DNA from: Candidatus Hydrogenedentota bacterium | GTDB taxonomy: Bacteria; Hydrogenedentota; Hydrogenedentia; Hydrogenedentales; JAEUWI01 | Direction of reading: 5' to 3' | Assembly (NCBI GenBank): GCA_019637335.1 | Contig: JAHBVV010000003.1 | Span: 186,001-250,000 of the forward strand | DNA: 64,000 nucleotides | Shown here: positions 34,316-47,198 of the stretch, piece after piece | How the letters are laid out: every line of letters begins with the position of its first letter | Position numbering within the stretch: the first letter of the stretch is position 1 | Translations under genes and position numbers: made by a program | The notes under the pieces: model-generated | The model's input: the letters and a program-made list of their open reading frames with translations, nothing else | What the model was told of the DNA's origin: nothing | Database searches by the model: none

Positions 34316-34429
34316 GCCTTACCGGCAACGGGTTTCCGTATGGGCTCGATTTCGCGCGCTCCTTCCGGGGGCGTTCGATTCCCGCGCGGAGCCGCGTGCC
34401 GCCACCCCTTCAGGAGTCGTCCGGGACGC

Positions 34430-36637
34430 ATGGCCTTATTTCGAAACACAACGGAGGGTGACGCCGCCGCAGCCCCGCCGCCGCAGCGGCTGGGGGAGTT
34501 GCTCGTGTCCAGCCAGCTGTTGACCCCCGAGCAACTGGCCGAGGCGGAAGCGGAGGCCGAAAAGAGCGGCGCATTCCTCTCCAAGGTGATGGTGCAAAAG
34601 GGGTTAATCACCCAGGACGATATCAACGCCTGCTTCGTGAAGCGCTGCAAGATCCCGCACATCAGTCTGCTCGATTACGAAATCAGCGCCGACGTTCTTC
34701 AGTTAATACCGCGCGAGGTCTGCGAGAAATACGGCCTCCTTCCCATCGACAAGCTCGGCCGCATCCTCACCGTCGCCATGGTCGACCCCCTGGACAGCGA
34801 AGCGCTCGCCATCATTCGCGATCATTGCGCCGAATTGCGCCTGAAGCCGATCCTCTGCAACTGGGCGCACTTCGAACAGGTAGCCGGCAAGTATTTCGCC
34901 GAGGGAGGCGCCGCCGCAAAGGGCAATGAAGTCACCATGGAGAGCTTTGGGCTCGCCAAACTTCCGCCCAAATCGGTCGCCCCGCCCCAGCCGCCTGCGC
35001 CAAAGCCCGCGCCCGCGCCCGCCACGGGTGTGGCCCCCGCGGCCCCCGGCATCGATTCCGCCGCGCTGGTTCAAGCCATACAAGACGGCATGCGCGGCGT
35101 CGCCCAGGATATTATCGGCGCCGTGCGGGGCATGCAGGCGCCCCCCGCCGGAGCGGCTTCCACGGCCCCCGGCATTGACTCCGCCGCGCTGGTTCAAGCC
35201 ATACACGACGGCATGCGCGGCGTTTCCCAGGACCTGTTGAGCGCCATCCAGGGCATGCACGCACCGGCCCCCGCCGGAGCCGGCGCGCCAGGCCTCGCCG
35301 AGGCCCTGCGAGAGAGCCTCGGAGACATCGTGCGCGAGTTGGCCGCCGTGCGCCACGATTCGCCCGCCCAATCGGAAGACATCGCCAACCAGGTTCGGGA
35401 CGCCGTCTCGTCGGTCATGAAGGAAGCCATCCAGCCCCTGGTGAGCCGCCCCGCCCCCGAGCCGGTACAGGCGGCCGCGCCCGAACTGGACACCGGAGCC
35501 CTCGCCGAGGTCCTCCGAGACGCCATTGGCGGCGTCCTCGAAGAAGCCATGGCATCGCTGGCCGTCCAGATTCGCGCGGGCGCCGCCCATTCCGAAAGCG
35601 AAGCCGCCGCCCAACAGGCGCTCGTCGCCGAATTGCGATCCGCCCAGGACGCCGCGGCAAGCGCGCTCCAGGAAGTCATCAACTCCGCCCTGGCGGCACA
35701 GGCCGTGCAGGGCGCGCGCCTGGCCGAGCTCGCCGAAGCCGCCGTGCTCTCGTCGCAGCAGACCACCCAACTCGTCGAAGCCTCGCTCGTGCAGGCCGGC
35801 GCCGCGGGCGGCGCGCGCGCGCGGCACAGCTCCGTCGCCGCCTTTGGCCCGGCCAGCGACGATGGCTCCCACGCCGCCGAAGACGAGCGCGTACGGGAGG
35901 CGCTCGAAGCCGAAGTGCCCCTCGAAACATTCACCCTCGACAACTACATCGCCGGCAAGGCGAACGCCTTCACCCTGCAGGTAAGCCAGTCCGTCGCCCG
36001 GAAGCCCGGCGGCGAATACAACCCCTTCTTCCTCTACGGAAACGTCGGCCTCGGCAAAACCCACCTCATCAGCGCCGTCGGAAACCAGATCCAGCGCGAG
36101 CAGCCCGGCCAGCGCGTGGGCTACGTCTCCGCAAGCCACTTCTCCCGCCGCCTGAAAGACGCCCTCGCCGCAAACGCCCAGGACGCCTTCCGCGACAACT
36201 ACTGCCACTGGGACGTCCTCATTCTCGACGACATTCAGTTCCTCGGCGGGCGCGTAGAGGCGCAGGAGGAGTTCTTCCACATCTTCAACGTCCTGCATCA
36301 GCAGGGCCGACAGATTATCATCGCAAGCGACAAGGCCCCCGACCGGCTCGGCCTCCTGGAGCAGCGCCTTATTTCCCGCTTCTCCAGCGGCATCGTGGTC
36401 GAGATCAAGCCGCCCGAGTGGGAAACGCGCATGCAAATCCTGCGCAGCCACGCCGGGAATTCGCCCGTCCCCGAGGAAATCCTCTCCCTGATCGCCATGC
36501 GCGTCCCGGGAGACGTCCGCAAGATGGTCGGCTGCCTGCGCAAGGTGCTCGCCTTCGCCGCGCACAGCGAAGGCCCGATGACCGTCGAATTGGCCACCGA
36601 AATCCTCAGCCACCTGGGGGGCGAAGCGGCCGCCTGA
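34430..36637 (+). CDS. MshEN domain fused to a DnaA-type AAA+ ATPase
   Basis: 735 residues. Residues about 20-155 are an MshEN (GspE/PilB N-terminal) domain: RLGELLVSSQLLTPEQL, then ISLLDYEISADVLQLIPRE and ILTVAMVDPLDSEAL. A low-complexity Ala/Pro linker follows with two copies of a roughly 41-residue repeat (GIDSAALVQAI..GMRGV..) and helical heptad-like stretches to about 480. Residues 501-730 are a DnaA domain III: FTLDNYIAGKANAF, Walker A GNVGLGKTHL (537-544), Walker B LILDDIQFLGG (Asp600/Asp601), the QRLISRFSSG arginine-finger box and VRKMVGCLRKVLAFA lid. The DNA-binding domain IV is absent. It precedes pilB and pilT, so it is likely a pilus-associated ATPase. The GGAG site is 14 bases from ATG 34430. 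Confidence 0.85.
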   Translation: MALFRNTTEGDAAAAPPPQRLGELLVSSQLLTPEQLAEAEAEAEKSGAFLSKVMVQKGLITQDDINACFVKRCKIPHISLLDYEISADVLQLIPREVCEKYGLLPIDKLGRILTVAMVDPLDSEALAIIRDHCAELRLKPILCNWAHFEQVAGKYFAEGGAAAKGNEVTMESFGLAKLPPKSVAPPQPPAPKPAPAPATGVAPAAPGIDSAALVQAIQDGMRGVAQDIIGAVRGMQAPPAGAASTAPGIDSAALVQAIHDGMRGVSQDLLSAIQGMHAPAPAGAGAPGLAEALRESLGDIVRELAAVRHDSPAQSEDIANQVRDAVSSVMKEAIQPLVSRPAPEPVQAAAPELDTGALAEVLRDAIGGVLEEAMASLAVQIRAGAAHSESEAAAQQALVAELRSAQDAAASALQEVINSALAAQAVQGARLAELAEAAVLSSQQTTQLVEASLVQAGAAGGARARHSSVAAFGPASDDGSHAAEDERVREALEAEVPLETFTLDNYIAGKANAFTLQVSQSVARKPGGEYNPFFLYGNVGLGKTHLISAVGNQIQREQPGQRVGYVSASHFSRRLKDALAANAQDAFRDNYCHWDVLILDDIQFLGGRVEAQEEFFHIFNVLHQQGRQIIIASDKAPDRLGLLEQRLISRFSSGIVVEIKPPEWETRMQILRSHAGNSPVPEEILSLIAMRVPGDVRKMVGCLRKVLAFAAHSEGPMTVELATEILSHLGGEAAA

Positions 36638-36732: not shown

Positions 36733-38457
36733 ATGGCCACACGCGCACCAAAGAAGCGATTGCCGGATATGCTGCTGGAGCAGAATCTGGTTACGCGCGA
36801 GCAGCTGCAGGAGTGTATCAACCTGCACCGGCAGACCGGACAGAGCCTGCCCAGCCTGCTGGTGGCGAACAACTACCTCTCCGAGGAAGACCTGGTCATC
36901 ACCCTGAGCGAGCAGCTCGGCATTCCCCATATCCGCGTCGCCCACTACTCCATCCCCAAGGAAGTCCTCTCCGAAGTCCCCGAAACCCTCGCGCGGCAGT
37001 ACCAGATGCTGCCCGTCAGCGTCACCGGCGATGTCTTGACCCTCGCCATGGCCGACCCCCTTAACATTATGGCGCTCGACGACCTCCGCATGCTCACCAG
37101 CTACGAGATCGAGCCCGTCGTCGCCGTCGCCTCCGAGCTGGCTGCCGCTATCAACAAGCATTACGGCGGCGGCAAGGCCGAAGACCTCTACGAATCCCTC
37201 GTCGGCAGGGAAGAGCGTGACGCGGACGTCGAGGAACTCAAGGCGGCGGACGAAATCGAGGACGTCTCCAAGCTTGAAGCCGGCGCCGAGGACGAGCCCG
37301 TCAAGAAGCTCGCCCGCCTCATCCTTTTCAACGCCCTCGAGCGCGGCGCCAGCGATATTCACATCGAGCCCTTCGAGAAAATCATCCGCATCCGCTACCG
37401 TGTCGACGGCACCCTCGAAGAGGCCAAGGCCCCGCCCAAGAGCCTCCAGCCCAATATCACCGCGCGCTTCAAAATCCTCTGCGGCTGCCGCATCGACGAA
37501 CACCGCCTCCCGCAGGACGGGCGCTTCCGGATCCGCTACAACGGCCGCGAGATCGACTTCCGTGTCGGTTTTCTCCCCTGTAAATACGGCGAGAAAATCG
37601 TGCTCCGTGTGCTCGACCAGGGATCCCTCACCCTCGACCTCGACCAGATGGGCTTCGAGCCCCAGCCCATGAGCGCCTTCAAGGAGGCCCTCAAGCTCCC
37701 GCACGGCATGATCCTCCTAACCGGCCCCACCGGCAGCGGTAAAACCACCACGCTCTACAGCGCCCTGCACAAGCTCAACTCGCCCGCCGAAAACGTCGTC
37801 ACCGTCGAGGACCCCATCGAATACGACCTCTTCGGCGTCAACCAGGTCCAGGTCCAATCCACCATCGGGTTCACCTTCGCCGCGGCACTCCGCCAGATCC
37901 TCCGCCAGGACCCGGATACCGTGATGGTTGGCGAAATTCGAGACGGCGAAACGGCGGACGTGGCCGTGAAAGCGGCCCTCACCGGCCACCTCGTGCTCAG
38001 CACCCTTCACACCAACGACGCCGCCGGCGTCTTCCCGCGCCTCACCGACATGGGCATCGAGCCCTTCCTCGTGCAGTCTTCCGTCGCCCTGGCCGCCGCC
38101 CAGCGCCTCTTCAAGCGCGTCTGCACCGACTGCAAGGAGCCGATCAACGTGCCCGAAGAAGTGCTCGACCGCATCCAGTGGCGCGGCTTCGACTACCTCG
38201 AGCGCGTTCAGTTCGTCCGGGGCCGCGGGTGCAGCCGGTGCAAGGAAAGCGGATACCGCGGTCGCGTCGCCGTCATCGAAGTCCTCCTCAACTGGCCGGA
38301 GTTGCAGCCGCTCGTACTCGAGCGCGCCTCGGGCTACGCCATCAAGCAACAGGCCATCGCCTGCGGCATGCAGACATTGCGGCAAAACGGCCTCGCCAAA
38401 GCGGCGAAGAGCCTCAGCACGATCGAACAAGTGCTGGAACACTCGCCCGCGGACTAG
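36733..38457 (+). CDS. pilB: Type IV pilus extension ATPase PilB (GspE family)
   Basis: 574 residues, normal length. An MshEN domain (about 8-145) precedes the GspE core with the N2 subdomain, Walker A GPTGSGKTTTLYSAL (331 onwards), the Asp box VEDPIEYDLFG, Walker B RQDPDTVMVGEIRDGETA and the His box STLHTNDAAG. A four-cysteine zinc site (CTDC..CSRC) is followed by ESGYRGRVAVIEV. This is the ATPase that powers pilus polymerisation from the cytoplasmic face. ATG 36733 follows AGGAG by seven bases. The upstream MshEN-DnaA gene has a related N-domain, pointing to domain sharing. Confidence 0.93.
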   Translation: MATRAPKKRLPDMLLEQNLVTREQLQECINLHRQTGQSLPSLLVANNYLSEEDLVITLSEQLGIPHIRVAHYSIPKEVLSEVPETLARQYQMLPVSVTGDVLTLAMADPLNIMALDDLRMLTSYEIEPVVAVASELAAAINKHYGGGKAEDLYESLVGREERDADVEELKAADEIEDVSKLEAGAEDEPVKKLARLILFNALERGASDIHIEPFEKIIRIRYRVDGTLEEAKAPPKSLQPNITARFKILCGCRIDEHRLPQDGRFRIRYNGREIDFRVGFLPCKYGEKIVLRVLDQGSLTLDLDQMGFEPQPMSAFKEALKLPHGMILLTGPTGSGKTTTLYSALHKLNSPAENVVTVEDPIEYDLFGVNQVQVQSTIGFTFAAALRQILRQDPDTVMVGEIRDGETADVAVKAALTGHLVLSTLHTNDAAGVFPRLTDMGIEPFLVQSSVALAAAQRLFKRVCTDCKEPINVPEEVLDRIQWRGFDYLERVQFVRGRGCSRCKESGYRGRVAVIEVLLNWPELQPLVLERASGYAIKQQAIACGMQTLRQNGLAKAAKSLSTIEQVLEHSPAD

Positions 38458-38501
38458 ATTCGCCCCGAGAGACCACGCGGAACGGAAGCAAAGGAGAAAC
38501 G

Positions 38502-39575
38502 ATGTCCACACCGAGCATCAAGGAATTGCTGACCAAGACCATTAAGGCGGGCGCGAGCGACCTGCACCTCGTGGTGGGCGCGCCGCCCATGATGCGCCTC
38601 CACGGCGGCCTCGAGCCCCTGGGGCGCTATGAGCGCCTCACCGCCGAAGAGACGCAGGAAATAATTTACAGCGTCATGAACGAAGACCAGATCGCCGAGT
38701 TCGAGTCCACGCGCGAGTGCGACATGTCCTTCGGCGTCGAGGGCCTCAGCCGCTTCCGTCTCAACGTCTACCGCGACCGCGGTTCCGTCGTCGCCGCATT
38801 CCGCGCCATCCCTTTCGAAATCCTCACCTTCGAACAGCTCGGCCTGCCCCGCGTCATCGCCGATTTCGCCTACAAACCCTTCGGCCTGGTCCTCGTGTGC
38901 GGCCCCACCGGCAGCGGTAAATCCACCACCCTCGCCTCAATCCTCGACAAGATCAACCGCGAGCGGAACACCCACATCATCACCATCGAAGACCCCATCG
39001 AATACCTGCACCGCCACAATCGAAGCGTGGTCAACCAGCGCGAAGTACACGCGGACACCAACTCCTTTGGAGATGCATTGAAGCGCGTCCTGCGACAGGA
39101 TCCCGATGTCATTCTCATCGGCGAAATGCGCGACACCGAAACCATACAGGCCGCCCTGACCGTCGCGGAAACCGGCCACCTCGCCTTCGCCACCCTGCAC
39201 ACCAACGACGCCCTCCAGACCATGAACCGCATCATCGACGTGTTCCCCGCCGGCCAGCAGGCCCAGGTGCGCACGCAGCTCTCCTTCGTGCTCGAGGCCG
39301 TCGTCGTTCAGCAGCTCGTTCCCCGCGCCGATGGTATGGGCCGTGTCCTCGCCATGGAGATCATGCTCGCGAACCCGGCCATTCGCTCCCTGATCCGCGC
39401 CGAAAAACTCGAACAGATCCCCTCCATGATCGAAATCGGCAAGGGCGAAGGCATGCTCACCATGAACCAGTCCCTCTACCGGCTCGCCAAACGCGGCGTC
39501 ATCACCACCGAAATGGCCTTCAAGCGCAGCGCCGACCCCGAAGGCCTACAGCACCTGATGGAAAAGGGAATGTAA
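38502..39575 (+). CDS. pilT: Type IV pilus retraction ATPase PilT
   Basis: 357 residues from ATG 38502 (AAGGAG upstream). Walker A GPTGSGKSTT (134-141), Asp box ITIEDPIEYLHRH, Walker B RQDPDVILIGEMRD, His box FATLHTNDALQTMNRIID and the C-terminal NPAIRSLIRAEKLEQI, equivalent to the PilT AIRNLIRE motif required for retraction. It drives pilus depolymerisation and twitching motility. It is immediately downstream of pilB. Confidence 0.95.
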   Translation: MSTPSIKELLTKTIKAGASDLHLVVGAPPMMRLHGGLEPLGRYERLTAEETQEIIYSVMNEDQIAEFESTRECDMSFGVEGLSRFRLNVYRDRGSVVAAFRAIPFEILTFEQLGLPRVIADFAYKPFGLVLVCGPTGSGKSTTLASILDKINRERNTHIITIEDPIEYLHRHNRSVVNQREVHADTNSFGDALKRVLRQDPDVILIGEMRDTETIQAALTVAETGHLAFATLHTNDALQTMNRIIDVFPAGQQAQVRTQLSFVLEAVVVQQLVPRADGMGRVLAMEIMLANPAIRSLIRAEKLEQIPSMIEIGKGEGMLTMNQSLYRLAKRGVITTEMAFKRSADPEGLQHLMEKGM

Positions 39576-39597: not shown

Positions 39598-41211
39598 ATG
39601 AAGAAACTGCTCGAGTACCTCCACCCGACCTACGACGGGCCCGCAACCTGGCTCTGGTTCGTCGGAATCGCCCGCATCGGGATGGTCGTGGTCGTGGCGT
39701 TGGGCGCGGAGCTCGTCACCGGCGACAAAGAAGCCTTCCGCTACCTGCTGAACGGCATCTACATCGCCGCCCTCGCCAGCAGCCTCTGGTACCTCGTCGT
39801 CCTCCGCCGCGAGGGTTCCATACCCGCCATCCTCACCTGGACCCAGGTCTTCGTCGATTTCGGCGTCGTCGCCGCCACCATCAGCTTCACCGGCGGCCAC
39901 GGCAGCGCCTTCACCTTCCTCCTCGTCATCGTCATCCTCGAGGCCGGCGTCCTCATGGGCCTCCTCCAGGGCTTCGTTTTCGCCACCGCCGCCTCCGCCT
40001 TCATGGTCTACCAGGCGCTGATCCAGGCCCCGCAGGCCAGCGACCCCCTCCTCCACTGGTACCAGTACCTCATCCAGGCGCTCGCCTTCTTCTTCACCGC
40101 CTTCATCAGCGGATACTGGAACCAGCGCGTCAGCCGCATGAAGCAATTCCAGCGCGAAATCCTCGACAACATGAACAGCGGCTTCCTCATCACCGACGAA
40201 AAAGGCGTCGTCATCGCCATGAACAAAGCCGCCTGCGGCATCCTCAATCTCGTCGAGGAAAACGTCGCCGGCCTTCACGTGGACGGAATCATGGTCCCCG
40301 AGTCCGGAGCCGAGTGCCCCGTTACCACCGCCCTCCGCCTGGAGAAGGACTTCACCAGCTACGAGTTCTACGCCCGAACCGGAGAAAGCGAAACCAAGCT
40401 CCTCGGTCTCACCACCAACCGCATCCGCGACGCCCACGAACACGTCACCGGCGTTATCGCCTCCTTTACCGACCTCACCGAAATGGCCCAGATGCGAAAA
40501 GAGCTCCAGAAACAGGACCGCATGGCCGTCATCGGCGAGCTCTCCGCCGGCCTCGCCCACGAAATTCGCAATCCCGTCGCCTCCATCCGCGGCAGCATGG
40601 ACGAGCTCCAACGAAACATCGATAACCCCTCGCTCGTCGATCGCCTCGCGAGGATCGCCGTCCGCGAATCCGATCACCTCAACGAAATCGTCAGCGGCTT
40701 TCTCGACTTCGCCCGCGATCCCGGGCGGCGCTACGGCGTACTCGACGTGCGCGAAGTCGCCCGCGAAGTCGAGGAGCAGCTCAACCGCAAGTACGGCGGC
40801 GCCCCCGGGCTGACCGTTACCCTGCAAACGCCCGCCGATCCCTGCCTCGTCCTGGGTGACCGAACACAGATCTGGCAGGTCTTCACCAACCTCGGGCAAA
40901 ACGCCATCGAAGCCATGGACGGCCAGGGCGCGCTCGCCATCATCGTGCTTCAAAACGAGACCCGCGGCCCCGTCGAAATTCGCTTCGACGACGAGGGCCC
41001 CGGAATCGCCCCCGACAAGATGGCCCGAATATTCGAGCCCTTCTACACCGAGAAGGAACGCGGGGTCGGCATGGGCCTCGCCATCTGCCTTCGCATTATC
41101 ACCGCCCATGACGGTACCATACAGGCGGCGTCCCGCCCCGGCGGCGGCACGTCGATGCATGTCCGTCTGCCCCGCGCGCGCGAGGCCGCCAGCGGATCCG
41201 ATTTCAACTGA
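39598..41211 (+). CDS. PilS/NtrB-type membrane sensor histidine kinase
   Basis: 537 residues. The first 175 contain about six hydrophobic helices (as in PilS). A PAS domain (ILDNMNSGFLITDEKGVVIA) follows, then HisKA with GLAHEIRNPVASIRGSMDEL and HATPase with N-box NLGQNAIEAM, DDEGPGI and FYTEKERGVGMGL boxes. PilS monitors pilin in the membrane and phosphorylates PilR. The regulator gene lies 13 bases downstream, so the pair is one operon with pilB and pilT. ATG 39598 is used. Confidence 0.85.
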   Translation: MKKLLEYLHPTYDGPATWLWFVGIARIGMVVVVALGAELVTGDKEAFRYLLNGIYIAALASSLWYLVVLRREGSIPAILTWTQVFVDFGVVAATISFTGGHGSAFTFLLVIVILEAGVLMGLLQGFVFATAASAFMVYQALIQAPQASDPLLHWYQYLIQALAFFFTAFISGYWNQRVSRMKQFQREILDNMNSGFLITDEKGVVIAMNKAACGILNLVEENVAGLHVDGIMVPESGAECPVTTALRLEKDFTSYEFYARTGESETKLLGLTTNRIRDAHEHVTGVIASFTDLTEMAQMRKELQKQDRMAVIGELSAGLAHEIRNPVASIRGSMDELQRNIDNPSLVDRLARIAVRESDHLNEIVSGFLDFARDPGRRYGVLDVREVAREVEEQLNRKYGGAPGLTVTLQTPADPCLVLGDRTQIWQVFTNLGQNAIEAMDGQGALAIIVLQNETRGPVEIRFDDEGPGIAPDKMARIFEPFYTEKERGVGMGLAICLRIITAHDGTIQAASRPGGGTSMHVRLPRAREAASGSDFN

Positions 41212-41224
41212 GGAGTCCACAGCC

Positions 41225-42619
41225 GTGCCCGTAAAACACCGCATCCTCGTCGTCGACGATGAGCTGAGCATGCGCGAGCTGATGGTCATCGTGCTCCAGA
41301 ACGACGGCTACGACGTGGACACCGCAAACGACGTCGCCAGCGCCGTCGCCCTCCTGGAAAAGACCCACTACGATGTCGTGCTCACCGACCTCTACATGGG
41401 GCACGACCGCAACGCCGGCATGGCCCTCCTCACCTGGCTCCAGGAAAACGCCCCCGGCACCCCCGCCATCATGATGACCGCCCACGGCTCCGTCGAAACC
41501 GCCATCGAAGCCATGAAGCGCGGCGCCGACGACTACATGATGAAGCCCTTCAAAAACGACGAAATCCGCATCCTCGTCGAGCGCGCCATCAAGAAGCGCA
41601 ATCTCGTCCGCGAAAATGTCGCCCTCCGCCAGCAGCAGGCGCAGCAGGGCGACCTGGGCAACATGATCGGAAAGAGCCCCGCCTTCCAGAACGTGCTCTC
41701 CATGATCCGGCGCGTCGCCGCACTCCCCAGCACCGTCGCTGTGCACGGCGAAAGCGGCTCGGGCAAGGAACTCGTCGCCCGCGCCCTCCACAACCTCAGC
41801 AACCGCGCAAACAAGCCTTTCGTCGCCATAAACTGCGGCGGCATCCCGGAGAACCTCCTCGAAAGTGAGCTCTTCGGACACAAGCGCGGCTCCTTCACCG
41901 GCGCCACCGAAGACAAGGAAGGCCTCTTCGTCGTTGCCAACGGCGGCACCATCTTCCTCGACGAAATCGGCGAGATGCCCCTGATGCTCCAGGTTAAGCT
42001 CCTCCGCGTGCTCGACAACAACACCGTTACGCCCGTCGGAAGCACCACCGATATCAAAGTCGACGTGCGCGTTATCTCCGCCACCAACCGCGACCTCGAA
42101 AAAATGGCCGAGGAGGGAAGTTTCCGAAGCGACCTCTACTACCGCCTCAACGTCATCCCCCTCTACGTCCCGCCACTCCGCCAGCGCCGGGACGACATAC
42201 CGCTGCTCTGCCGCCACTTCGTACAGGTCCACGCGCAAAACATGAACCGCGATCGCCTCGATATCAGCCCCGACGCCCAGAAGCTCCTCTGCGAATACAA
42301 CTGGCCCGGGAACGTGCGCGAGCTCGGAAACGTCATGGAACGCGCCGTCGCACTCTGCGCCACCGACACCATCGGCCTCGACGACCTGCCCGAAAACCTG
42401 CGGAACTACACCCCGGAGCTGCGCTCGTCCGCCACCCGCGCCCAGGTGCCCGACGAGGGCATGGACATGGAAAAGCTCATCGCCGACCTCGAAGTCGAAC
42501 TCCTCAAACAGGCCCTCGAAAAAAGCCGCTACTCCCAGAAGAAGGCCGCGAGCCTCCTGGGCCTCACACCCAGATCGCTCCGCTACCGCCTCCAGAAACA
42601 CGGCCTAGAGGCCCAGTAG
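41225..42619 (+). CDS. PilR/NtrC-type response regulator with variant GAFTGA loop
   Basis: 464 residues from GTG 41225 (AGGAG eight bases upstream). A receiver (LVVDDE, phospho-Asp in VLTDLYM) is joined to an AAA+ sigma-54 activator domain: Walker A GESGSGKE (175-182), Walker B GGTIFLDEIGEM, and a Fis-type HTH (RYSQKKAASLLGLTPRSLRY). The sigma-54 contact loop is GSFTGA (222-227) instead of GAFTGA. Such a substitution may still work but deserves testing. The target is likely pilin or pilus genes, by analogy with PilR. Confidence 0.88.
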   Translation: MPVKHRILVVDDELSMRELMVIVLQNDGYDVDTANDVASAVALLEKTHYDVVLTDLYMGHDRNAGMALLTWLQENAPGTPAIMMTAHGSVETAIEAMKRGADDYMMKPFKNDEIRILVERAIKKRNLVRENVALRQQQAQQGDLGNMIGKSPAFQNVLSMIRRVAALPSTVAVHGESGSGKELVARALHNLSNRANKPFVAINCGGIPENLLESELFGHKRGSFTGATEDKEGLFVVANGGTIFLDEIGEMPLMLQVKLLRVLDNNTVTPVGSTTDIKVDVRVISATNRDLEKMAEEGSFRSDLYYRLNVIPLYVPPLRQRRDDIPLLCRHFVQVHAQNMNRDRLDISPDAQKLLCEYNWPGNVRELGNVMERAVALCATDTIGLDDLPENLRNYTPELRSSATRAQVPDEGMDMEKLIADLEVELLKQALEKSRYSQKKAASLLGLTPRSLRYRLQKHGLEAQ

Positions 42620-44393: not shown

Positions 44394-46124
44394 TTAATCG
44401 ATGCCGAGCTCACGCCAGGCGACCTGCGACACGGCGAGGATCGGGTAGTTCCCGATCATGCCAATGGGCAGGTTGTCCGCGAGCGCGGGCACTTGATAGA
44501 TGTTCGGCACGTTGGTTCCCATGTCGAAGTAATTGGAAACAAAGGTGCCCATGACATTGGTTTGTTTCTGCGATGTAATCTGGTTCTGCGCGTAAAAGGC
44601 GCCCATGATGTCCAACTGCGCCGTGGAACCGACCATCATGTTGTTGGAGGCCATAATGCCGATGATGTTGTTCACCGGGAAGCTGTTGGCGATGTTGGTC
44701 TTGTTGCCGTTGTTGCAGGTGATCAGGTTGGCGTCGATAGCCACATCGCCATAGACCAGGAAGGCCGCGCGCCCACTGTAGTTGATGGTGCGGTCATTGC
44801 CCTGGCCGGTAAAGGACAAATTGCCGTTAATCCGGATCTGGCCATTGATGCGGAGAACATCGGTCGCCGGATCGAAGTAGAGATAGTCGTGATCCGCGGG
44901 CGGCAGCGAGGCGGGGAGCGATCCGCTCAACGTTTCGCCGGTCGTTGCGTTCCAGTAGAACGACGAGCCTCGCGCATTGAGCACGATATTGCCATTGTAG
45001 ATTCCGTCGTTGGGTATGTTCGGATCGGCGACGAGCACCTCGTTGAAGTAGTCCTCGTGCGTGTACCACGTGCCCGTGGCGGGGTTCTGGACTCTGGAGC
45101 CATCGTCGGGATCGCGCCAGTCGTCCGTGAGCAGGGGGAAGGGCACCTTGTCGCCCAGGTCGTACAGTTCGTCCCAGCCGTTGTCGCTGAACACATTCTT
45201 TGGGTCGCCGCGGTCGCCGTCATCCACCACGGAGTTTCCGGTCCAGCCGCGGTTTACATAGGTGCCGTCCATGGTCTCTTTGTAATCGTTGCCCGCGACA
45301 TTGGGCTCGCCGATCTCGGAGTTGCCGGACATGCCGACCAGGCCCTCTTTCGCGCGCAGCTTCGCCTCCAGGGTGTACACGGCCTCGCCGTTGAAGAGCG
45401 TCTGCTTCAGCGGGGGCACGCGCGCGAACAGGTGGTTGGGGATCCCGGCGTAGTTGTTGTGTATCAGGCTGGTGCCGCTCAGGTCAATTGCCGCAAGCGC
45501 CAGCGCGCCGTTGAATAGGTTGTCGCCCAGAAGGTGAACGGACCCGTGAATGCTCACGTTGCCGTTGATGAGGCCGCCCGCCTGGCCGGACCCCGCGAAG
45601 ATAGCGTTCTCCCAAACGTTTACGTTGCTCGCCTCGTAGACCACCTCGACACGGCGCGTGTTCGCGCCGTTGCGGGCCATCGCGTACACCGTAAACATGT
45701 CGTCTTCCGCCGTGCTGTCGATGATGCCGTCCCCGTTGTTGTCGCGGCCGTCCTCGGCCCAATGCACGGTGTAGGCGGCGAATTCGACGTCTTCCATCGA
45801 CTGGAGCGTTTGCGGCTGGACGCCCTCGGCATCGAAATCGGGGAGCACGATGCGGTTGTTCTCGTCATAGACCGGCGTCCAGCCGTCCATGCCGATGATG
45901 CCGCTGTCTCCGGTTTCCAACTGCACCCGCGCCGCGCTCACGGCGGCCTCGACGCCCTGAAAGGCGGTCGTGTAGTCCTCGTACTGGCCCACCGCGGTCC
46001 GCTGCTGGAGCGAGCGCGACATGAGCGCGCCCACCACAACGATCCCGATGGCGATGAAAAACAGCGCCAGCATGAGGGCCATGCCACTTTCCGAATTGTT
46101 CTGTGTCTTTTGCGGTCGTACCAT
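44394..46124 (-). CDS. PilX-like pilus assembly protein with large C-terminal domain
   Basis: 576 residues. The N-terminus SESGMALMLALFFIAIGIVV is the usual start of PilX-type minor pilins: a short leader, then a membrane helix, lacking the canonical Gly-Phe but with Gly-Met. The rest is a large beta-rich domain with many Asn/Asp/Gly turns (LINGNVSIHGSVHLLGDN, INGNLSFTGQG). It is part of a polycistron between a PilW-like prepilin and the TPR-like gene. PilX-like proteins sit at the pilus tip or are needed for its priming. The family-average size is nearer 200, so the extra domain could be an adhesin. Confidence 0.75.
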   Translation of the reverse strand: MVRPQKTQNNSESGMALMLALFFIAIGIVVVGALMSRSLQQRTAVGQYEDYTTAFQGVEAAVSAARVQLETGDSGIIGMDGWTPVYDENNRIVLPDFDAEGVQPQTLQSMEDVEFAAYTVHWAEDGRDNNGDGIIDSTAEDDMFTVYAMARNGANTRRVEVVYEASNVNVWENAIFAGSGQAGGLINGNVSIHGSVHLLGDNLFNGALALAAIDLSGTSLIHNNYAGIPNHLFARVPPLKQTLFNGEAVYTLEAKLRAKEGLVGMSGNSEIGEPNVAGNDYKETMDGTYVNRGWTGNSVVDDGDRGDPKNVFSDNGWDELYDLGDKVPFPLLTDDWRDPDDGSRVQNPATGTWYTHEDYFNEVLVADPNIPNDGIYNGNIVLNARGSSFYWNATTGETLSGSLPASLPPADHDYLYFDPATDVLRINGQIRINGNLSFTGQGNDRTINYSGRAAFLVYGDVAIDANLITCNNGNKTNIANSFPVNNIIGIMASNNMMVGSTAQLDIMGAFYAQNQITSQKQTNVMGTFVSNYFDMGTNVPNIYQVPALADNLPIGMIGNYPILAVSQVAWRELGID

Positions 46125-46126
46125 GG

Positions 46127-46741
46127 TTAATTCCTCGGGTTCACTAGTTCGGTGAACTCTTGCCGGATCACGTGGCCCCGGCGGGAATGGCCTTGTGTCC
46201 GTATGGTTATCAGTACGCCACCATTTTGACTTTCGACCCAGAACCCCGCCGTGTTCTCGGGCAATTCGGCCCCATCCGGCACGGGAGCCGGGCCGGGATC
46301 GGGAGACAGATTATTTGCGAGGACTGTAACCGCGTCCCCGTTTATCATGATCAGTTGCGTCGTGGTCAGGCCGTCCCCGTTCAGGTCGTCGGCGTCGCGC
46401 TGAACGGTGATCACCCCGCTCAATTCGAGGGCCCCGCCCACGTTTACCGCGCTGCCGTTGCCGTCGATATCCGCGGCCATGCGGAAGGACAGCACATCGC
46501 CCGGAAACTGCGCGGTGTTGACGCTCACCCGCTGGGCCTGGCGCAGGCGCGGCACGATCGCCAGCAGCGCGCGCCGCGCCTCATCGTTCGAGTTGATCTT
46601 GGAGTTCTGAATGCGCGCCGTGTCGCCAATTGTCAGCGAAAGTGTAAACAACACGCCCGTGACCGCCGTCAGGATGGCCATCGATATCATCAGTTCCAGC
46701 AGGGTAACGCCGGCCCGCCGTTTGTCGTGGAGGTTCTTCAT
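46127..46741 (-). CDS. Type IV prepilin-like protein, PilW/GspJ type
   Basis: 204 residues from ATG 46741, one base after the preceding stop (a TTG twelve bases upstream is less likely). The leader MKNLHDKRRAGVTLLELMIS has the Gly-(Val)-Thr-Leu-Leu-Glu class III cleavage site followed by a hydrophobic helix. The C-terminus is a beta-rich minor-pilin domain. It follows the PilV-like gene and precedes the PilX-like gene, the usual order V-W-X of minor pilins. Confidence 0.85.
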   Translation of the reverse strand: MKNLHDKRRAGVTLLELMISMAILTAVTGVLFTLSLTIGDTARIQNSKINSNDEARRALLAIVPRLRQAQRVSVNTAQFPGDVLSFRMAADIDGNGSAVNVGGALELSGVITVQRDADDLNGDGLTTTQLIMINGDAVTVLANNLSPDPGPAPVPDGAELPENTAGFWVESQNGGVLITIRTQGHSRRGHVIRQEFTELVNPRN

Positions 46742-46742
46742 A

Positions 46743-47198
46743 TCAGCGCCCAATCGAAGTTGTAACGTACGACTTGTACACTTGCCCGTTTTCTCGTGTC
46801 CATAGCAGGGTGGCCTTCACTTCCACCGGATTGGGAAGATCCGGAAGCGGCCCGGTGATCTTGCCCGTCAGGGGGTCCGTCGCCAGGTTCATGGGCAGCG
46901 AGATTGACGCCCCGTCCGCGTCGAAACATTCGAGTTGAATCGTCCGGTCGGCGCCGGGATGCGCGGGCTTTTCCGGCGCGTAGGTCACCAGGTCGCTCAG
47001 CGGCATGCCCCGCATCGACTCCAATATGCTGGAGAGCTCCGTATTGGCGATTGCCCGCTCCTCGTTGACCCGGCCAATCACCAGGACGCTGATCATCGAA
47101 CCGAAAATCAGCGACAGCGCCACCGCCAGGATCCCCATGGCGAAGGTAATTTCGATAAGACTGAGACCCGCATTGTCGGGCAGGCTTTGCTTTTTCAT
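46743..47198 (-). CDS. Type IV prepilin-like protein, PilV/GspI type
   Basis: 151 residues from ATG 47198 with GGAGGAG upstream. NAGLSLIEITFAMGILAVAL is a prepilin signal (Gly-Leu-Ser-Leu-Ile-Glu) running into a membrane helix, with a small C-terminal globular part. It is the first gene of the minor-pilin operon. A candidate sigma-54 promoter lies about 50 bases upstream. PilV-type proteins join the tip complex that primes pilus assembly. Confidence 0.85.
   Translation of the reverse strand: MKKQSLPDNAGLSLIEITFAMGILAVALSLIFGSMISVLVIGRVNEERAIANTELSSILESMRGMPLSDLVTYAPEKPAHPGADRTIQLECFDADGASISLPMNLATDPLTGKITGPLPDLPNPVEVKATLLWTRENGQVYKSYVTTSIGR

Follow-up and report, generated by a model that had tools for sequence, protein, structure and literature searches.

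Beside the type IV pilus motor genes of a Candidatus Hydrogenedentota bacterium, one protein joins a PilB-type MshEN domain to domain III of DnaA, with the nucleotide-binding and inter-subunit catalytic residues of the latter intact. In three phyla this fusion keeps its place by pilB and pilT, and it lacks a double-stranded-DNA-binding domain. Both of its domains are known; their combination and the pilus setting are new. We hold with moderate confidence that the fusion serves the type IV pilus motor as an accessory regulatory ATPase, in which the MshEN domain would provide docking and the AAA+ domain an assembly switched by ATP. An earlier sequence-only reading had proposed a pilus-associated ATPase built of these two modules, and both the domain order and the adjacency to pilB support that proposal.

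In the window (the whole 64,000-nucleotide stretch of DNA that was analyzed), the fusion is encoded by a single open frame that runs uninterrupted from its ATG to its stop (Table 1); a second possible start, in frame at position 34340, gives a longer version. At the N-terminus, a Pfam search finds an MshEN domain, and an NCBIfam PilB-type match equates residues 21–166 with the PilB N-terminus. The domain that the sequence-only reading had described as common to the fusion and PilB is present in both. The C-terminal part carries the complete set of DnaA-type AAA+ motifs quoted in that reading (Walker A, Walker B, arginine-finger box and lid). Here an NCBIfam DnaA-type match aligns residues 481–729 with DnaA positions 99–338 of 437, so that the fusion contains domain III only. 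The DnaA model TIGR00362 scores the protein at 273.7, below its cut-off of 343.9, IstB-type matches are given by the AAA+ domain as well, and the T2SSE motor domain (PF00437) is without a match in the Pfam search. Because the protein ends directly after the AAA+ lid, where the alignment stops at about E. coli DnaA residue 372, it has no domain IV, the helix-turn-helix part that binds DnaA boxes, as had been read from the sequence. Structure prediction, which had been proposed as a check, supports both folds. In Foldseek searches, the AF2 model of the MshEN domain matched 5htl, 9g1w and 6ejf, with MshE and PilF/PilB N-domains at the top of the list, and that of the AAA+ domain had its best matches in DnaA domain III (Table 1).

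Table 1. The fusion gene, its parts and the pil genes behind it. Positions count from the first base of the window; residue numbers (aa) are those of the fusion protein.
Feature	Position	Strand	Evidence and remarks
MshEN-DnaA fusion gene	34430..36637	+	single open frame, 735 aa; PF05157 5.6e-15, Bac_DnaA PF00308 1e-55
MshEN domain, aa 18-163	34481..34918	+	PF05157 and PilB N-terminal matches; AF2 pLDDT 93; Foldseek best: MshE, PilF/PilB N-domains
Two 24-residue c-di-GMP motifs with 5-residue spacer, aa 20-72	34487..34645	+	degenerate: 8/11 and 8/10 positions kept
Variable linker, aa 164-490	34919..35899	+	one segment duplicated (starts at aa 205 and aa 246)
SFGL just past MshEN, aa 172-175	34943..34954	+	S[LF]GL-type motif in 25/47 orthologues vs 0.1 expected after shuffling (descriptive figures: pattern picked post hoc, orthologue rows related)
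HSSVAAFG before the AAA+ domain, aa 466-473	35825..35848	+	family form HASVAPFG; (H)ASVAPFG pattern in 33/47 orthologues vs 1.5 expected (descriptive figures, for the same reasons)
DnaA-type AAA+ domain (domain III), aa 491-735	35900..36634	+	profile matches; AF2 pLDDT 93.2; Foldseek DnaA domain III, TM 0.88-0.90
Walker A GNVGLGKTHL	36038..36067	+	Gly residues, Lys and His invariant, n=47 sequences
Initiator-specific motif, two tandem helices between Walker A and B	36131..36205	+	AF2 secondary structure H78-90, H94-102
Walker B LILDDIQF	36218..36241	+	both Asp invariant
Arginine finger R650 (= E. coli R285)	36377..36379	+	invariant 47/47
Sensor II R697 (= E. coli R334)	36518..36520	+	invariant 47/47
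pilB, with its own MshEN domain	36733..38457	+	TIGR02538 3.7e-187; starts 95 bases past the fusion
pilT	38490..39575	+	T2SSE ATPase 3.4e-45
pilS sensor kinase	39598..41211	+	6TM_PilS, PAS, HisKA, HATPase
pilR sigma-54 response regulator	41228..42619 (start approximate)	+	Response_reg, Sigma54_activat, HTH_8

All four of the genes pilB-pilT-pilS-pilR, before which the fusion had been placed, are found downstream of it, and within the phylum this arrangement is widespread. The fusion is encoded in 55 of the 68 Ca. Hydrogenedentota genomes analyzed, a count made up of 54 with the AAA+ part at E <= 1e-88 and one (G006) cut by a contig end. We took 49 fusion loci with their flanks; in all 47 whose contig continues, the fusion is followed directly by pilB. 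Between the fusion's stop codon and the large ORF that comes next there are mostly fewer than 100 bases, or the frames as called overlap, as expected for an operon. PilB orthologues occur in 59/68 genomes: 53 carry both genes, seven neither, six PilB alone and two the fusion alone, the last two being cut by contig ends (Fisher p ~5e-5, a value that ignores kinship among the genomes). With respect to membership in the type IV pilus machinery, the fusion is thus encoded in, and co-inherited with, the pil locus. Such a neighborhood is not proof of a function in the pilus. In genus g24 (G031, G037), pilB-pilT-pilS-pilR are retained with other genes upstream and without the fusion, G018 has an MshEN-linker protein without the AAA+ part upstream of pilB, and in G009 a comparable ORF, likewise without the AAA+ part, lies on a different contig; in G050 and G067 the contigs stop short of the place needed to judge. 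These fusion-less or AAA-less loci indicate that the fusion is accessory and dispensable for the locus rather than a core part of the machine. Further along the window (44394-47198, minus strand) lie likely minor pilin genes, one frame with an N-methylation motif (PF07963) and two neighbors with pilin-like N-termini.

The sequence-only reading had suggested looking for the same domain order in other genomes and asking whether it always adjoins pilB. It recurs in three phyla, beside pilB wherever this can be checked. All three Ca. Abyssubacteria genomes analyzed encode a 435-468 aa protein (MshEN, short linker, DnaA) directly before pilB-pilT-pilS-pilR. In Ca. Fermentibacteria, a cluster upstream of pilB encodes an MshEN protein and an MshEN-DnaA protein of 409-423 aa, followed by a TonB-like gene, pilB, pilT and a T2SSF (pilC-type) gene. 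A 1993 aa Fermentibacteria protein (L279:9942-15923, plus strand, in G387), also encoded upstream of pilB, consists of MshEN, a DnaA AAA+ domain, a long helical-repeat-like region and a second DnaA AAA+ domain. Since true DnaA scores 1e-80 to 1e-87 with the same AAA+ model, we set its cut-off to 1e-88; at this level about 310 other genomes gave no match, a cut-off that can miss divergent fusions and did overlook those of Fermentibacteria, which came up through MshEN. In an MshEN search of the same genome set, the matches listed from outside the three phyla were mostly PilB-sized frames, again with cut-offs that can miss divergent cases.

In a maximum-likelihood tree of the AAA+ domains, the fusions of Hydrogenedentota and Abyssubacteria group together as a single clade (99/95), and the 15 DnaAs, without exception, make up a clade of their own (97/96) with the fusions outside it. 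The Fermentibacteria sequences fall outside both clades, in more than one place. The tree rejects a recent duplication of the host phylum's own dnaA. Two Fermentibacteria genomes (G386 and G387; L265-L270, L272-L274, L276-L278) additionally encode about 12 proteins that combine a receiver domain with the AAA+ domain III of DnaA. The genes are scattered over the genome, several of them beside histidine kinases, and the arginine finger is mostly lost. These REC-DnaA proteins suggest that DnaA domain III has also turned into an output module of two-component signaling in this phylum; a literature search found no paper on the architecture.

The nucleotide-binding and inter-subunit residues of the AAA+ domain are largely kept. 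Besides the invariant positions in Table 1, among them the Walker A lysine, the sensor I aspartate is kept in 44 of the 47 orthologues and the equivalent of R281 in 39. R227, the AID residue that E. coli DnaA uses in initiation-competent oligomers, is replaced by cysteine or serine in most members, and the assembly formed by the fusion may therefore differ from that of DnaA. Head-to-tail assembly of DnaA with ATP depends on R285 (PMC5742627). As judged from the alignment, the residues predicted to serve such ATP-dependent assembly are conserved in the fusion, for which the sequence-only reading had suggested, as an example, a putative polymerizing or remodeling activity at the pilus machine.

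The MshEN domain offers a possible input. The published c-di-GMP motif consists of two 24-residue units, RLGxx(L/V/I)(L/V/I)xxG...LxxxLxxQ, separated by a 5-residue spacer (PMC5013675). The consensus of the fusion family keeps both units, and the domain in the window exceeds the threshold of the NCBIfam MshE-type c-di-GMP motif model (41.7 bits vs a cut-off of 38). From the copy in the window, G10, L21 and Q24 of motif I and G3 and Q24 of motif II are missing, with similar decay in the genus mates of its species; because of these losses, its binding of c-di-GMP is doubtful. With 17 GGDEF domains encoded in the genome, c-di-GMP is probably made in the host, and together with the consensus motif this makes control by c-di-GMP plausible for the family. 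The response to c-di-GMP that had been proposed for the fusion is thus plausible for the family and doubtful for the copy in which it was proposed.

Other MshEN and DnaA-type proteins are encoded in the same genome. A 449-aa protein (L084:5295-6644, minus strand, G000:C1), which carries a cyclic-nucleotide-binding domain (PF00027 6e-21) at its C-terminus, has an MshEN domain close to that of the fusion and adjoins a Ser/Thr kinase-like gene. A 519-aa frame (G000:C6:230760-232169) seems to match MshEN and, weakly, GGDEF, a possible MshEN-GGDEF fusion. A 596-aa protein (L003:328-2118, minus strand, G000:C1) has a weak DnaA-type AAA+ match (5.5e-8) and, behind it, an apparent coiled coil; weak DnaA-type matches also occur elsewhere among the genomes of the phylum.

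The linker between the two domains had been described as a repetitive Ala/Pro stretch. It is indeed Ala-rich (24%) and contains one duplicated segment, but proline makes up only 8%, and among relatives its composition varies strongly, as does its length (113-766 aa). Near its two ends lie the short peptides SFGL and HSSVAAFG (Table 1), which resemble docking peptides.

Taken together, we picture the accessory ATPase as follows. The MshEN domain would bring the fusion to the cytoplasmic pilus base, at the PilM/PilC/PilB site, under the control of c-di-GMP in those members that retain the motif. PilB itself docks in a socket of PilM, and secretion-system structures have been used to infer contacts between its N-domain and PilM (PMC11656802). 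The long flexible linker would act as a tether, and its two conserved peptides could serve as additional docking sites. Bound to ATP, the AAA+ modules would assemble head to tail and, upon hydrolysis, come apart again. This switch may decide between recruitment of PilB and of PilT, or set how active the motor is. In Hydrogenedentota and Abyssubacteria, pilS and pilR share the locus with the fusion.

A sharper version of this explanation, and the boldest reading left, assigns the AAA+ domain a definite target. DnaA, DnaC and IstB work on complexes of other ATPases or of transposases. By analogy, the DnaA-clade domain of the fusion might act on protein rings instead of DNA: assembling with ATP at the pilus base, it would bind the RecA-like hexameric rings of PilB and PilT and load, open or exchange them, gated by c-di-GMP in many species. 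By sequence and fold the domain belongs to the initiator/loader clade, with its tandem-helix initiator-specific motif and IstB-type matches; hexameric ring ATPases are encoded next door, and the MshEN domain common to the fusion and PilB could give both the same docking site. Yet the argument is an analogy from the fold, and we put this reading forward tentatively, at roughly one chance in four. If true, it would extend the initiator/loader clade to cell-surface motility and supply a mechanism for the switch between pilus extension and retraction.

We consider it rather unlikely that the fusion instead works on the chromosome, binding DnaA and promoting its ATP hydrolysis under MshEN control, and so linking pilus or c-di-GMP state to replication in the manner of Hda. 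Hda is likewise a domain-III-only relative of DnaA, its model TIGR03420 matches the fusion at 2.9e-27, and the arginine finger is retained. Set against this, the fusion is far nearer DnaA than Hda (3e-81 with TIGR00362), always lies within the pil locus and is missing from most genomes without PilB.

Less probable still is a role in DNA uptake, with an AAA+ spiral binding single-stranded DNA that enters via the type IV pilus system. In B. subtilis DnaA, the domain III residues N187, I190, R202, K222 and E228 contact single-stranded DNA (PMC10721633). In the fusions, the positions that correspond to R202 and E228 are conserved. Against the idea, other residues mostly stand at the positions of N187, I190 and K222 in Hydrogenedentota, the protein has no domain IV, and no adjacent competence gene was noted. 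An argument against DNA binding from the loss of E. coli R245 was dropped, since the phylum's true DnaAs are also without it.

That the fusion is a functionless chance product, a decayed or mis-assembled piece of dnaA, we regard as next to impossible: beyond the odd architecture nothing speaks for it, the genome encodes a separate full-length DnaA (465 aa, with domains I and IV, at G000:C16), so that the fusion does not represent a fragmented chromosomal initiator, the catalytic residues are invariant in 47 sequences, and the frameshift, assembly join or hidden domain IV that the sequence-only reading had named as grounds for doubt are excluded by a continuous fusion in dozens of independent assemblies, from three phyla that share the architecture and the locus. 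A defense-system reading was likewise rejected, as the fusion has no PADLOC match.

DnaA-type AAA+ domains act in replication (DnaA, Hda), and their near relatives in helicase loading and transposition. A family that three uncultured phyla keep among their type IV pilus genes would give this module a new role, and our literature search found no paper that ties MshEN or pili to a DnaA-type ATPase. It bears on an open question of pilus biology: how PilB and PilT are recruited and switched, and where c-di-GMP enters that decision. With DnaA domain III the fusion shares the AAA+ fold, Walker A and B, the initiator-specific tandem helices, the arginine finger and sensor II. Unlike DnaA, it has no domains I, II and IV, belongs to a separate clade, has mostly replaced N187, I190 and K222, and is encoded in a pilus locus. 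Hda and other domain-III-only relatives resemble it in combining a DnaA-type AAA+ domain with the absence of domain IV; by contrast with Hda, the fusion is much nearer DnaA in sequence, carries MshEN and a long linker, and lies among pilus genes. The extension motors PilB and MshE have the same N-terminal MshEN domain, but in the fusion a DnaA-type AAA+ domain stands in the place of the T2SSE motor domain. MshEN serves as an input domain for varied outputs in other proteins as well: the main text of PMC5013675 lists REC, HD-GYP, CheA, CheX, adenylate/guanylate cyclase and Ser/Thr kinase as partners and does not name a DnaA-type output. A parallel on the output side is REC-DnaA of Fermentibacteria, in which DnaA domain III is likewise the output of a signaling protein. 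Unlike in the fusion, a receiver replaces MshEN, the arginine finger is mostly gone and the genes are dispersed instead of being kept beside pilB.
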